This document shows positions 33,359 through 38,250 of a DNA stretch of 64,000 bases, piece by piece. Under the pieces are notes generated by a model. It was not told the origin of the DNA, did no database searches, and was given only the letters and a program-made list of their open reading frames with translations. The stretch is from Mycolicibacterium arabiense (GTDB taxonomy: Bacteria > Actinomycetota > Actinomycetes > Mycobacteriales > Mycobacteriaceae), in the NCBI RefSeq assembly GCF_010731815.2, contig NZ_AP022593.1, positions 3,906,001-3,970,000 of the forward strand. The letters run 5' to 3'. A program made the position numbers and the translations under genes. Positions within the stretch are counted from its first letter, which is position 1. Each line of letters begins with the position of its first letter.

Positions 33359-33385
33359 TTGCTCTCCGCCCTGTGCCGGTCTTCT

Positions 33386-33403
33386 CCTCGCGCAAGCGCT
33401 CGT
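33386..33403 (-). repeat. Start-less copy of the micro-ORF element before IclR
   Basis: On the minus strand ACGAGCGCTTGCGCGAGG is the micro-ORF sequence ATGAGCGCTTGCGCGAAG with ATG changed to ACG. It lies just upstream of the IclR start and in frame with it. It is probably a decayed third copy of the element found twice at 35724-35791. Confidence 0.55.
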
Positions 33404-33415
33404 CAGGCGCTGCCC

Positions 33416-34588
33416 CTAGCCGTACAGCCTGGCGACCACCCAGTCGTGGAATTCACCGATGTGGTGCTCCGACGGGACCAGCACGCCGCCCGCCCGATAC
33501 CCCCGCGACGACATCGCCGGTTGGGTCCGTTCGCAGGCGTCGAAGTCCTGCAGGTTGACCCGGTGGAACAGCTCGACGGACCGGTCGAGATCGCGGCCTC
33601 CCTCGACCACCTGGGGGAGGTAGAGCCAGTCGCACTCCACCACCGTGCGGTCGGCGGCCATGGGATACATCCGGTGGAAGATCACGTGGTCGGGCACCAG
33701 GCTGACGAACACGTTCGGCCGCACCGTGATCGCGTAGTAGCGGCGGTCCTGCTCGGCCGTCACGCCGGGAATCGGGTCGAGTCCCGCGCTGCCGTCGACG
33801 GTGAAGCCCTCGACGTCCTCGCCGAACAACGCGCCGTGACCGACGAAGTACTGCGCAGCGAGACCGTCGGCGAACTCCGGCAGCACCTCGGTGAGTTCCG
33901 GGTGGATCGTCGCGCAGTGATAGCACTCCATGAAGTTCTCGACGATGAGCTTCCAGTTGGCCTTGACGTCGTAGACGACCCGACGACCGACCGACAGCTC
34001 CGGGATGCCGTAGCCCTCGATGGCCTCGGGGTGGCCGAGGCGCCTAGTGACGGTGCCGATGACGTCGTCCTCGAACGAGGGAGGTTCCGCGGCCAGGCAC
34101 ACCCACGCGTACCCGAGCCACTCCCGCAGCGCGACCTTGATCAGGCCGTACTCGGTACGGTCGATGCGCGCCCCCGTCGCATCGGTCAGCGAGCCGAGAT
34201 TCGGTGCGGCGGCCAGCTTTCCGTCGAGGCCGTAGGTCCAGGCGTGGTACGGGCACTTCAGGTGGCGCTTGGCGACACCGGAGTCCTCGGTGCACAGCAT
34301 GGCGCCGCGGTGTCGACAGACGTTGAGGAACGCGTTGAGCGTGCCGTTCCGCCCGCGGACGACGAGCACGCTCTCGCGACCGACCTGGACCTTGCGGAAC
34401 GCGCCCGGCTCGGGCAGATCCGCGCTGCGGACCGCGCAGAACCACATGCGCTCGAAGATGAGGTCCTGTTCGGCGTCGAACTTCGCAGGGCTGCAGTAGT
34501 AGTCACCGGCCAGGGTCGGCACCAGTGAGCTGCCGGTCGGCGTGGCGGAGGCCAGGCCGGTGGGTTGGGGGTCGTCGATGGTCGTCAC
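33416..34588 (-). CDS. Rieske oxygenase, probable glycine betaine demethylase (GbcA-like)
   Basis: 390 residues from GTG 34588, overlapping the sarcosine oxidase stop as GTGA. The Rieske cluster is CRHRGAML followed by CPYHAWTYG (about residues 92-117). The catalytic mononuclear iron site is in [16 protein letters not shown]. Overall length and order fit the oxygenase component of the glycine betaine monooxygenase family, which removes one methyl group to give dimethylglycine. The matching reductase (GbcB type) is not in the cluster. Downstream genes are IclR and the BCCT transporter. Confidence 0.85.
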
Positions 34589-35727
34589 GTGGTCACCAGC
34601 CGTCGCGGGTCGAAGAGTCCGATGGGATGGGCGGTCGCGCCCGTGGTCGCAAGGTCGGCCAGCACTTCGCCGACGACGGGCACGAACTTGAAGCCGTGGC
34701 CGGAGAATCCGCACGCCACGGTCACGTTGTCGTAGTCGTGTGGGCGGGTGATGACGAAGTGCTCGTCGGGGGTGTTGGAGTACATGCAGGTGGCCGTGTG
34801 CACGGCGGGGCCAGACAGCGCCGGCAGCAGTTGGGTCACCCGGTCGCGCATCTCGTCGACCTCGCCGGCTCGCACGGTCCGGTCGATGGTGTCGGGCGTG
34901 CACACCTGACCCTTGCGGAAGAACGCGGTCTTGACGCCGCCCGTCGGCCCGTCGATGGCCGGGAACCCGTAGATCTGCTGGCCGTTGGCGTTCTCGTCGA
35001 TGTAGATCGGGTGGTCCTCGAACGGCCCGATGCCCCCGGCGGGGTCGAGCCAGTAGAGCACCTGCCGCTCGATGGTGATCGGGATGCCGAGGTCGGTGAG
35101 CAGCTCCGGTGCCCACGCGCCGGGGCAGATCACCAGCTGGCCTGCGGTGTACGTGCCGGATCCGGTGGTCACGGTGACGCCCCGTGGCCCGTCCGACCAG
35201 CCCGTCACCTCCTCGCCGAAACGCAGAGTCGCGCCCTCGCGGGCGGCGAGGTCGATGTGCGCCTGCACGGTCATCTCCGGGCGGGCGAACCCTGCCTTGG
35301 CCTCGTAGACCGCGACGTCGTCGGCCCCCGGCGTGAAGGTCGGGAAGCGCCTGCGGATCTCGGGCGCGTCGAACACCTCGTGGGCCAGAGACCATTCCCG
35401 GGCCGCACGCAGGCTGCCGGCCACGGTGAGGCACTCGGGCGGACCGATGAACAAGCCGCCGGTCATCTCGTACACCTCGAGCCCGCTGAGCCCGGCGAGT
35501 TCCTCCCACAGCTCGTAGGCGCGCAACAGCAGCGGCACGTATGCAGGATCCTCGAAGTACGACTGCCGGATGATCCGCGAGCCGCCGTGACTGGAACCCC
35601 GATCGTGTGCCGGGGTGAACTTCTCGAGTCCCAGTACCCGGGTGCCCCGGCGCGCGAGGTGATAGGCGGCGGCGCTGCCCATGCCGCCCAGCCCGATCAC
35701 GATGACGTCGTATGCATTGTCCTTCAT
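34585..35727 (-). CDS. Monomeric sarcosine oxidase-like flavoprotein
   Basis: 380 residues from ATG 35727, with AGAGGA 5 bp upstream. [20 protein letters not shown] binds FAD. C314 in [13 protein letters not shown] corresponds to the Cys that holds FAD covalently in monomeric sarcosine oxidase. It would oxidise sarcosine to glycine and formaldehyde, or another N-methyl amine. Its ATG overlaps the stop of the second micro-ORF as ATGA. Confidence 0.9.
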
Positions 35728-35759
35728 CGGGGTCCTCTGATCTTCGCGCAAGCGCTCAT
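35724..35759 (-). CDS. Micro-ORF 2, [11 protein letters not shown], coupled to sarcosine oxidase
   Basis: Eleven codons plus TGA. Its ATG overlaps the stop of micro-ORF 1 and its own stop overlaps the ATG of the sarcosine oxidase gene, both as ATGA. AGAGGA inside it is the ribosome site for the next start. It is a 32-bp-offset copy of micro-ORF 1 with three base changes. It may be a leader or coupling peptide; translation is inferred. Confidence 0.5.
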
Positions 35760-35791
35760 CGGGTTCCTCTGCTCTTCGCGCAAGCGCTCAT
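35756..35791 (-). CDS. Micro-ORF 1, [11 protein letters not shown], coupled to dimethylglycine oxidase
   Basis: Eleven codons plus TGA. Its ATG overlaps the TGA of the dimethylglycine oxidase-like gene and its TGA overlaps the ATG of micro-ORF 2. Internal AGAGGA is well placed to start micro-ORF 2. The only ribosome signal before it is AAGG two bases upstream, so it would depend on ribosomes finishing the upstream gene. Confidence 0.5.
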
Positions 35792-38250
35792 CGCCTTATC
35801 AGCTTCATCTCGGGGTCCACCACCGGCTCGGAATGCACGGTCGCGCCGTAAGTTTCGGTCAGGTAGTCGACGCGCACCGCGTCGCCGACCTCGACGTCGG
35901 CGGGCAGCCAGGCGTAGGCGATGCTGCGGCCGATGGAGGCGGAGTAGCCGGCGCTGGTGACGTAACCGACCGTCGCGTCGTCGGCACCGGCGAGGGTGAC
36001 GGGTTCCTTGCCGAGCACCACTGCGGTGGGGTCGTCGAACACGATGCTGCGCAGCACCTTCGACGGCGGCGCGGCGGCGTCGAGGGCCGCCTTGCCCAGG
36101 AAGTCGCCCTTCTTGGCCGACACCGCGAAGCCGACTCCGGCCGCGCCGGGCTGATGCTCGGTGGTCATGTCGGTACCCCAGGCGCGGTAGCCCTTCTCCA
36201 ACCGCAGGCTGTTGAAGGCGATCCGTCCGGCCGCGATTGCGCGGTGCTCGCGTCCCGCGTCGAACAGCAGGTCCCACAACTTCAGGCCGTGCTCCGCGGA
36301 AGCGTATATCTCCCAGCCCAGTTCACCGACGTAGGAGACCCGCATCATCGTCACGGGCACCGAGCCGATGAACGTCTGCAGGGCGCGGAAGTAGCCGAAC
36401 GCCTCGTGCGAGATGTCGGCGGCACACAGTGGCGCGACCAGGTCGCGGGCGCGCGGCCCCCACACGCCCACGCAACACGTGGCGCCGGTGACGTCGCGGA
36501 CGGTGACGCCGGTCGACGGCAGATGCCTGCGGATCCAGTCCATGTCGAGGGGACCGTTCGCGCCGACCTGGAACAGCTCGTCTCCGAGTCGTGCGACGGT
36601 CAGATCGCTTCGGATGCCGCCGGTTTCGTCGAGCATTAGCGTGTAGGTGACCGAGCCCGTGCGCTTGTCGACGTTGTTGGTCGTCATGCGCTGCAGGAAG
36701 TCGCAGGCGCCGGGTCCACTGACCTCGTAGCGGGTCAGCGGCGTCATGTCGTACAGCGCGACGTGCTCGCGGGTCCAGCGCGCCTCGGCGATCGAGATCG
36801 GCGAGTAGAACCGGCCGGACCAGTCGTCGCGTTCCGGGAAGTCAACTCCGGCGGACGACAATTCGCCGATCAGTCCGGCGTTCGCCTCGTACCAGGCGGG
36901 GCGCTCCCAGCAGCCACCTTCGAAGAAGTGGGCGCCGAGTTCTTCCTCCCGTCGGTGGAAGGGGCTCACCCGCAGATTGCGCGGGTCGCTGCGGTACTGG
37001 TGCGGATGGAGGATGTCGTACACCTCGACGAAGGCCTGCGAACTCGTCTTCAAGATGAACTCGGGGCTCTTCGCGGGCTCTTCGAACCGGTATAGGTCGC
37101 ACTCGTGGACGTCGGTGGTCGGGGCGCCGTCGAGGATCCACTCGGCCATGGCCTTGGCCACGCCTGCGGAGTGCGTCACCCACACCGCCTCGGCCACCCA
37201 GAACCCGGGCAGGTCGCGGTGCTCGCCCATGATCGAGAACCCGTCGGGGGTGAACGAGAAGATGCCGTTGAAGCCCTCCTCGACCTTCGAGTCACCAAGG
37301 GCAGGAAGGAGTTCGGCGCTGGCCGCCCAGCCGGGTGCGAAGTCGTCGTCGGTGAACGGCAGCATCGACGGCATCGACTCGCTTGCCGTGTCGATCCCCC
37401 CGTCGGAATCGGTCAGCAGTGTCGTCATGTCCACCGGCATCGGGCGGTGGCCGTAGAAGCCGATGCCCAACCGGTCACCGTGCTCGCGGTAGTAGAGGTC
37501 CTGGTCCTGGTGGCGCAGGATCGGCAGTCGCGGATCGCCGTCCCACCCGTCGCGGCGCAACTCGGCCAGCTGACCGGTCTTGGCGTACTGATGGGCCATC
37601 GGTACCAGCGGCACGGTGAGCCCAACCCGGGCGCCGAGTTGGGCGCCCCAGAATCCGGCGGCCGAGACGACGACGTCGGCATCGAACTCGTCGCCGGCAG
37701 CAGTCCGTACGCCGACGACCCGTCCGTCCCGATCGAGGACGTCGGTCACCTCTTGATGGGGGAGGAAGCGCGCGCCTCGGCTAATGGCCCGCTCGGCCTG
37801 CGCGGTGGCAGCTGTCAGCGCTCTGGCCAGCCCGTCGGTCGGGGTGTGGAAGCCGCCGATGATTCGGCGCTCGTCGAGGAGCGGGTGCAGTGCCTTGCAG
37901 GCCGCGGGGTCGATCAGCTCACCGGGAACGCCCCAGGCCCGCGCCCACCCGTGCCTGCGGTGCAGCTCGGTCCAGCGGGCCTCGGTGGTCGCCACTTCCA
38001 GACCGCCGACCTGGTCGAATGCGCCTAGTTCGACGAACTTCTCGACCGTGTAGGTGGCCAACTCCGTCATGGTCTTCGACCCGTTGGTCTGGAACACCAG
38101 CCCTGGGGCATGCGAGGTGGACCCGCCGGTGGCGAACATCGGGCCACGGTCCAGGACGGTGACGTCGGTACATCCCCTGGCGGTGAGTTCGTCGGCCAGC
38201 GACGTGCCGACGATTCCCGCGCCGATGATGACGACTTTGGGCTGGGCCAT
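35788..38250 (-). CDS. Dimethylglycine oxidase-like FAD/GcvT fusion protein
   Basis: 820 residues from ATG 38250, with AGGAGC upstream. The N-terminal half is a DAO-fold oxidase: VVIIGAGIVGTSLADEL, then H47 in GGSTSHAPGL, a probable covalent FAD site. The C-terminal half (from about residue 440) is a folate-binding aminomethyltransferase (GcvT) domain with FLQRMTTNNVDKRTG and SYVGELGWEIYAS. Enzymes of this kind demethylate dimethylglycine and pass the one-carbon unit to tetrahydrofolate as methylene-THF, avoiding free formaldehyde. It is first in the leftward operon. Confidence 0.9.
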   Translation of the reverse strand: MAQPKVVIIGAGIVGTSLADELTARGCTDVTVLDRGPMFATGGSTSHAPGLVFQTNGSKTMTELATYTVEKFVELGAFDQVGGLEVATTEARWTELHRRHGWARAWGVPGELIDPAACKALHPLLDERRIIGGFHTPTDGLARALTAATAQAERAISRGARFLPHQEVTDVLDRDGRVVGVRTAAGDEFDADVVVSAAGFWGAQLGARVGLTVPLVPMAHQYAKTGQLAELRRDGWDGDPRLPILRHQDQDLYYREHGDRLGIGFYGHRPMPVDMTTLLTDSDGGIDTASESMPSMLPFTDDDFAPGWAASAELLPALGDSKVEEGFNGIFSFTPDGFSIMGEHRDLPGFWVAEAVWVTHSAGVAKAMAEWILDGAPTTDVHECDLYRFEEPAKSPEFILKTSSQAFVEVYDILHPHQYRSDPRNLRVSPFHRREEELGAHFFEGGCWERPAWYEANAGLIGELSSAGVDFPERDDWSGRFYSPISIAEARWTREHVALYDMTPLTRYEVSGPGACDFLQRMTTNNVDKRTGSVTYTLMLDETGGIRSDLTVARLGDELFQVGANGPLDMDWIRRHLPSTGVTVRDVTGATCCVGVWGPRARDLVAPLCAADISHEAFGYFRALQTFIGSVPVTMMRVSYVGELGWEIYASAEHGLKLWDLLFDAGREHRAIAAGRIAFNSLRLEKGYRAWGTDMTTEHQPGAAGVGFAVSAKKGDFLGKAALDAAAPPSKVLRSIVFDDPTAVVLGKEPVTLAGADDATVGYVTSAGYSASIGRSIAYAWLPADVEVGDAVRVDYLTETYGATVHSEPVVDPEMKLIRR

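Follow-up and report, generated by a model that had tools for sequence, protein, structure and literature searches.

The REP and ERIC repeats of enterobacteria are tiny, dispersed, intergenic and palindromic and have no gene of their own. MIRUs enter DTGA (stop-codon) sites and carry small ORFs that overlap the neighboring genes. As summarized in the excerpts of PMC2734929 and PMC3635867 that cite their description (Supply 1997), MIRUs are units of 40 to 100 bp that occupy 41 places in H37Rv, with proposed roles that include differential translation within operons (PMC2734929), and most of them are intergenic and are thought to lie in operons (PMC3635867). Repeat units of 77 and 53 bp are given for the senX3-regX3 region in an excerpt of PMC4213456. 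For the VNTR/ETR-F array, which is located upstream of fpg1 and consists of 55- and 79-bp units, the relevant section of PMC2734929 reports a correlation of repeat length with the downstream mRNA level and states that these units are unique to the M. tuberculosis complex.

Here we describe a 32-bp repeat of Mycolicibacterium arabiense and its relatives that came to notice as two micro-ORFs between two oxidase genes. These micro-ORFs are tandem copies of a dispersed repeat and not a device of the betaine operon; they are neither specific to that operon nor, on present evidence, a sensor. Judging from the sequence, the repeat is probably a MIRU-like mini-repeat that is tolerated at sites of translational coupling and perhaps tunes it.

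The repeat units between the two oxidase genes

Plain coordinates in this text refer to the window, i.e., the whole 64,000-nucleotide stretch of M. arabiense DNA that was analyzed. The features of the junction, with a further copy of the repeat downstream, are the following.

35788..38250, minus strand: upstream gene, dimethylglycine-oxidase-like, with FAD oxidoreductase and aminomethyltransferase domains; putative start, taken as the methionine of MAQPKV; the stop codon TGA (35788-35790) shares bases with the ATG of micro-ORF 1
35756..35791, minus strand: micro-ORF 1, 11 codons and stop
35760..35791, minus strand: repeat unit 1, 32 bp, ATGA to ATGA (Tandem Repeats Finder)
35773..35789, minus strand: core of unit 1, GAGCGCTTGCGCGAAGA
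35765..35770, minus strand: Shine-Dalgarno-like AGAGGA ahead of micro-ORF 2, so assigned also from the family-level Shine-Dalgarno counts given below
35724..35759, minus strand: micro-ORF 2, 11 codons and stop; the downstream gene begins at an ATG that overlaps the TGA of this ORF
35728..35759, minus strand: repeat unit 2, 32 bp (Tandem Repeats Finder)
35741..35757, minus strand: core of unit 2
35733..35738, minus strand: Shine-Dalgarno-like AGAGGA ahead of the downstream gene
34585..35727, minus strand: downstream gene, similar to monomeric sarcosine oxidase/N-methyltryptophan oxidase
33385..33401, minus strand: third core copy, GAGGA subtype, a one-base variant (TGAC followed by GAGCGC)

This layout bears out much of the earlier note, which had described the two 11-codon micro-ORFs and their peptides, the ATGA overlaps that chain all four coding units, an AGAGGA ahead of each next ATG, and a single Cys in each peptide. 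Two of its counts need correction: the units differ at 2 positions and not in three bases, and each peptide contains three Lys/Arg residues and not four or five. Both units begin with ATGAGCGCTTGCGCGAAGA, end just ahead of the next ATGA, and encode 11 codons; the two ORFs together span 35724-35791. Tandem Repeats Finder scores the period-32 array at 126. The spacing had been called too exact for chance, and the array score agrees with that; however, the exactness is nothing special to the betaine operon, because it comes from a 32-bp repeat unit that recurs genome-wide. A third copy had been placed before the IclR gene. It does exist, but as a one-base variant of the GAGGA subtype with its core at 33385-33401; it lies between a Rieske oxygenase gene and the IclR gene on the same strand and is present in the relative G526 and absent in the relative G594. 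The micro-ORFs are real in the sequence, and their translation is likely.

A dispersed repeat at gene junctions

The core of the repeat has the consensus GAGCGCTTGCGCGA(A/G)GA and is part of a 32-bp dispersed unit. With up to 2 mismatches, the core GAGCGCTTGCGCGAAGA is found at 52 places in the M. arabiense genome, compared with 3 for the reversed control pattern, and the GCTCGCGCG variant, in which the Cys codon is replaced by one for Arg, at 6 places at one mismatch. The repeat (pattern GAGCGCTTGCGCGARGA) is detected in 98 of 148 genomes of the genus, at a maximum of 100 places per genome (control, 0). Order-wide, it is found in 43 of 298 genomes (control, one place in one genome). It is absent from 20 sampled genomes of other genera of the same family and is found outside this family in many genomes of family f2, in families f6 and f12, and in single genomes of f4 and f14. 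An exact 28-base version of the repeat is present in 87 stretches of named genomes. Titles were listed for 80 of these 87 matches: 71 name Mycobacterium or Mycolicibacterium, the remaining 9 belong to drafts of other actinobacteria or Mycobacteriaceae, and M. tuberculosis and M. leprae do not occur among them. Environmental species that carry copies include M. agri and M. hippocampi. An extreme expansion is seen in G123, with 100 core places and 81 pairs at spacing 33.

Neither the 72,556 plasmid records nor the 50,697 phage records that were searched contained a match to the tandem pair (E limits, 1e-3 and 0.1), although a lone 17-base core could escape this search and records near the M. arabiense genome may be missing from them; a mobile-vector origin of the repeat was rejected on this result. 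Among open-licence texts, no matching literature was found for the repeat motifs and the peptide stem or for the term “MIRU-like,” and the matches to strings of a longer module (see below) were unrelated, judged by title; absence from print is not claimed.

The repeat is common across the genus, where many gene pairs that are unrelated to one another carry it at their stop/start overlap. Its position was examined at 42 M. arabiense sites, 23 of them with an exact core, the offsets being read by eye. At 18 of these 23 sites, the core starts on or just after the TGA of the upstream gene, on the same strand (offset -1 in 16 cases and -4 in 2), and at two more (L004 and L015) the upstream stop is 11 to 13 bases ahead. 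Counted from where the last core begins, the next start codon lies at exactly +30 in 16 of the 23. The misfits are L007, apparently within coding sequence, L011, which is antisense, and L008, for which no co-directional upstream gene was found; sites with one or two core mismatches are more mixed in their position. L011 is an inverted copy, apparently just inside the start of an opposite-strand gene, and would encode part of its N-terminus.

Besides the downstream gene of the window, the remaining 15 of these 16 downstream genes represent 15 different Pfam families, among them an EngA-type GTPase, a phosphoribosyl-AMP cyclohydrolase and an Mce-type protein. The 12 to 13 bases after the core are mostly site specific, yet near-identical within one tandem array, and therefore tandem copies probably arise locally. 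The earlier note had named a motif scattered through non-coding DNA with broken frames as the outcome that would speak against its reading; the repeat is indeed scattered, but mostly at gene junctions and with mostly intact frames. A separate observation is that like genes may follow the element although the families differ: it stands ahead of presumably yebC-like genes at L113 (G152) and L097 (G222) and, as in the window, ahead of what we take to be a sarcosine-oxidase-like gene at L116 (G303), these names being assigned from the N-terminal sequence alone.

The region was matched by 78 genomes; in these, 52 junctions that follow the dimethylglycine-oxidase-like gene were inspected, and 47 were readable. 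An intact core, defined as one with at most one mismatch, is present at 5 of the 47 (the window, G526, G594, G008 and G112). A decayed 32-bp copy is found in G598 (1/47), 17-bp ATGA-to-ATGA pieces, apparently left by deletion, are found in G035, G137, G428 and G430 (4/47), and no copy or piece is seen at the other 37. The decayed copies after this gene retain ATGA-to-ATGA lengths of 32 or 17 bp. In some genomes, including G112 and G598, the gene next after the dimethylglycine-oxidase-like one is of the Rieske type; G008 has one copy ahead of a sarcosine-oxidase-like gene. At the window junction, there are no copies in G569, one in G526, and two both in the window and in G594, where the second unit stops 11 nt short of the next ATG. 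In G569, the closest relative found, the junction (..CTGATAAGGCGATGAAGGACAACGC..) equals the window sequence minus 64 bp. With the closest relative empty and copies present in more distant ones, gain cannot be told from loss at this junction alone.

Gain is more likely elsewhere, e.g., at L034 and L031, which are empty in all three relatives (G526, G594 and G569). The 26 other M. arabiense sites correspond in G526 to 13 sites with the core, 10 without, 2 altered and 1 not found, and in G594 to 2 with the core, 19 without, 4 not found and 1 in which the copy has decayed with its length unchanged; the G569 draft yielded 12, several of them at contig ends. L034, a copy with two core mismatches, is bracketed in M. 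arabiense by two occurrences of ACCGTGA, a 7-bp flanking duplication. The direct repeat past the shared TGA (left flank versus unit end) averages 3.08 bases over 60 sites, orthologous ones included, compared with 2.66 after shuffling, and 0 of 5,000 shuffles are as high; for M. arabiense alone the values are 3.53 and 2.73 (17 sites, 13 of 5,000 shuffles). This signal of target duplication is small and is limited by the CGATGA motif that is common to most sites. When checked for MITE-like structure, the unit ends had no inverted repeat, and the flanking repeat was weak and variable in length; the only palindrome in the array is the 6-nt AGCGCT in each core. That no transposase or other mover was identified counts against the insertion account.

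Probable translation through the repeat and competing explanations

We consider it probable that the repeat is a MIRU-like mini-element, of which the micro-ORFs are tandem copies, and that it enters ATGA junctions in such a way that the overlap is restored. The 32-bp element would enter stop/start (ATGA-type) overlaps of co-directional genes, nearly always in the orientation of these genes, and convert one ATGA into ATGA-28 bp-ATGA, supplying a purine-rich Shine-Dalgarno-like tail ahead of the next start. A ribosome finishing the upstream gene could then reinitiate on the 11-codon ORF and pass on to the downstream gene, so that the insertion would be tolerated and tandem copies could accumulate; slippage or recombination would add or remove them. 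The element may also alter the output of the downstream gene quantitatively. The idea of a ribosome relay through the ATGA chain, put forward in the earlier note, survives in this general form, in that it fits the chain endings, the spacings and the lengths of the decayed copies; its narrower part, a ratio device specific to the operon, is unsupported.

Features of the reading frame were counted in loci L001 to L178 and in further genomes, and none of these array and site counts are phylogenetically independent. The loci comprise 101 sites with 182 units, 162 of which begin with ATG; of these, 117 end in ATGA and 12 in GTGA or TTGA, the other 33 stopping elsewhere. Among 57 arrays, a Shine-Dalgarno 4-mer is present ahead of the downstream start in 40, compared with 24 for the first ATG and 10 for a control place; loci preselected for a GAGG-containing tail are excluded from these counts. 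Spacings in 81 fetched arrays, a tally that includes such loci, are 102 at 32, 28 at 33, 5 at 30, and 1 at 35. The ATGA chain is maintained by a 32-bp unit and the frame by a 33-bp unit, whereas lengths of 31 and 34 bp preserve neither. An absolute frame rule, drawn from a first tally with 0 of 136 spacings at 31 or 34, was dropped, as exact-core pairs in 248 genomes, counted at spacings 31, 33 and 34, include 23 pairs at 31 (16 genomes) and 5 at 34 (4 genomes), next to 297 at 33 (70 genomes; 81 pairs in G123). The rule is a preference only.

The chain of reading reaches the downstream gene in 78 of 91 arrays, compared with 0.85 of +1-shifted and 0.43 of -1-shifted trials (among loci selected for a GAGG tail, 70 of 76 arrays, 0.94 and 0.34), and this test separates real arrays from the -1 control only, not from +1. 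A long ORF in the DERLREE frame is open in 6 of 10 33-bp arrays and in 1 of 61 32-bp arrays, 4 mixed-spacing arrays (1 open) being excluded from both counts; this contrast is weak, because a period of 33 by itself keeps the frame open. The spacing pattern favors translation through the arrays, and subfamily history could yield part of it, because the GAGGA subtype accounts for many of the 33-bp arrays. In the 33-bp arrays of L121 (G055 C1:4218986-4219266), L031 and L330, there are DERLREE protein repeats in frame with neighboring long ORFs.

A serious, if on balance disfavored, alternative is a selfish or neutral small repeat, for which the ORF, the chain and the tail would matter only as insertions elsewhere are lost by selection, and the peptide or ORF would have no role; its odds overlap those of the preferred account, the dispersed-repeat half being common to both. 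The fast turnover between relatives suits this alternative, as does RNA folding, which in three folds of the window region is no better than for shuffles (z values, -0.36, 0.98 and 0.49). So does the tail, which in 14 orthologous copies (13 in G526 and 1 in G569) changes about as often as the flanks: at 13 of 168 positions, 8 of them from the shifted copy L012 (5 of 156 without it), compared with 120 of 2,674. However, none of the 238 core positions is changed in these copies, which were accepted with up to 4 core mismatches (a limit that excludes strongly decayed copies, e.g., L023 in G526) at M. arabiense sites that were themselves picked by a near-intact core. The core is conserved above its flanks, and this, together with the under-representation of lengths that break reading, argues against an element without a translated role. 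Conversion between copies could also hold the cores alike. The more distant relative G594 has an altered core at L005 and L017 and a decayed one at L013.

The view that the copies are translated portable intercistronic cassettes is speculative and, in our estimate, rather unlikely. Each insertion at an ATGA overlap would add one reinitiation step, copy number would be an evolvable dial on the level of downstream protein, the conserved core would be recognized by a factor that spreads the element to such overlaps, and some of the 33-bp versions would serve as protein heads or tails.

We find it improbable that the ORF is incidental and the core a portable RNA or DNA signal, i.e., a site for protein binding or RNA processing between cistrons. 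The conservation of the core above that of tail and flanks and its orientation, which matches that of the genes at most sites, would suit such a signal, whereas the single-strand folding and the spacing classes, which track the reading frame, speak against it. Structured RNA was rejected as a candidate, the three folds being like shuffles.

An operon-specific relay that sets the ratio of dimethylglycine oxidase to sarcosine oxidase, as the micro-ORFs were first read, is very unlikely. The ATGA chain and the Shine-Dalgarno spacing are intact in the window, and the single copy in G008 also precedes a sarcosine-oxidase-like gene, but the same unit stands ahead of 15 further M. arabiense genes, each from a different Pfam family, 41 of the 47 readable junctions after the upstream gene are without an intact or decayed 32-bp copy, and the copies in G112 and G598 are followed by a different, Rieske-type gene. 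With the repeat genome-wide and the nearest relative found (G569) without a copy at this junction, the betaine-specific relay was discarded as the main explanation. The other role first proposed was a sensing leader. Taken as a peptide leader for cysteine or basic amino acids, it is extremely unlikely even with one Cys and three Lys/Arg codons per 11-codon ORF, as the Cys codon becomes Arg in the GCTCGCGCG variant, the repeat sits between genes of many functions, and there are 0 terminator-like sites in 35500-36000 and no unusual fold. An amino-acid attenuator would call for a run of the sensed codon together with a terminator or an alternative fold, whereas each ORF has a single Cys and the region shows neither of the latter two.

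In many mycobacterial species, up to dozens of junctions per genome bear the 32-bp unit. If the ORFs are translated, the arrays found in nature, with 0 to more than 10 copies, would be a ready series for reinitiation tuning of operon output, as well as a short, clean test object for the long-debated MIRU-type role outside the tuberculosis group. The sharp empty sites bring the insertion mechanism within reach.

Comparison with known repeats

Like REP and ERIC repeats, the 32-bp repeat is tiny, dispersed, intergenic and geneless; unlike them, it has only a 6-nt palindrome in the core and no fold beyond that of shuffles, and it carries a start codon, a stop codon and a Shine-Dalgarno-like tail. 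With the VNTR/ETR-F array, as described in the excerpt of PMC2734929, it shares the tandem arrangement between co-directional genes and the variable copy number, the difference being the unit length, 55 and 79 bp there versus 32 bp here.

There are also MIRU-sized repeats in the genus. Tandem units of 77 bp that start with ATG are found in G077, G028 and G008; when 10 other genomes of the genus were searched with the unit from G077, one of them matched, as did the M. arabiense genome, which has one copy of this 77-bp type and one partial. Such units are located at start codons in L124 (G077), L119 (G028), L126 (G008), and L147 and L151 (both G065), as well as in L148 (M. arabiense C2:4489114-4489187). 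By eye, they have flanking duplications that include the start codon: TAGACCCATGA in L147, GGGAGAGGCCCAGTGAC in L151, and AAGTGAAC, which occurs twice, 77 bp apart, in L148. In f2 genomes, the 32-bp core can be joined to a longer module (L100, L101, L103, L106, L114, L115 and L116; GAGTGAGCATCGCAGCGAGCGCCAGCGAGTGAGGAGCGGAGCGAG in L100), and these composites form tandems with cores 82 to 93 bp apart, also around ATGA or TGA junctions.

The 32-bp repeat is likened to the MIRU of M. tuberculosis by features, not by sequence, and its core appears to be different. Like MIRUs, it is dispersed between co-directional genes in direct orientation (18 of 23 exact-core sites), sits at junctions with a small ORF that overlaps both neighbors, and occurs in tandem with a variable copy number (0, 1 or 2 at the window junction; 81 arrays). 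It differs in being 32 bp long, compared with the 40 to 100 bp given for MIRUs in the excerpt of PMC2734929, the 82- to 93-bp core spacings being found only in the f2 composite. It also differs in being widespread in the genus and present in some other families of the order, sometimes joined to the longer module. By analogy, the 32-bp unit looks and probably works like a MIRU.
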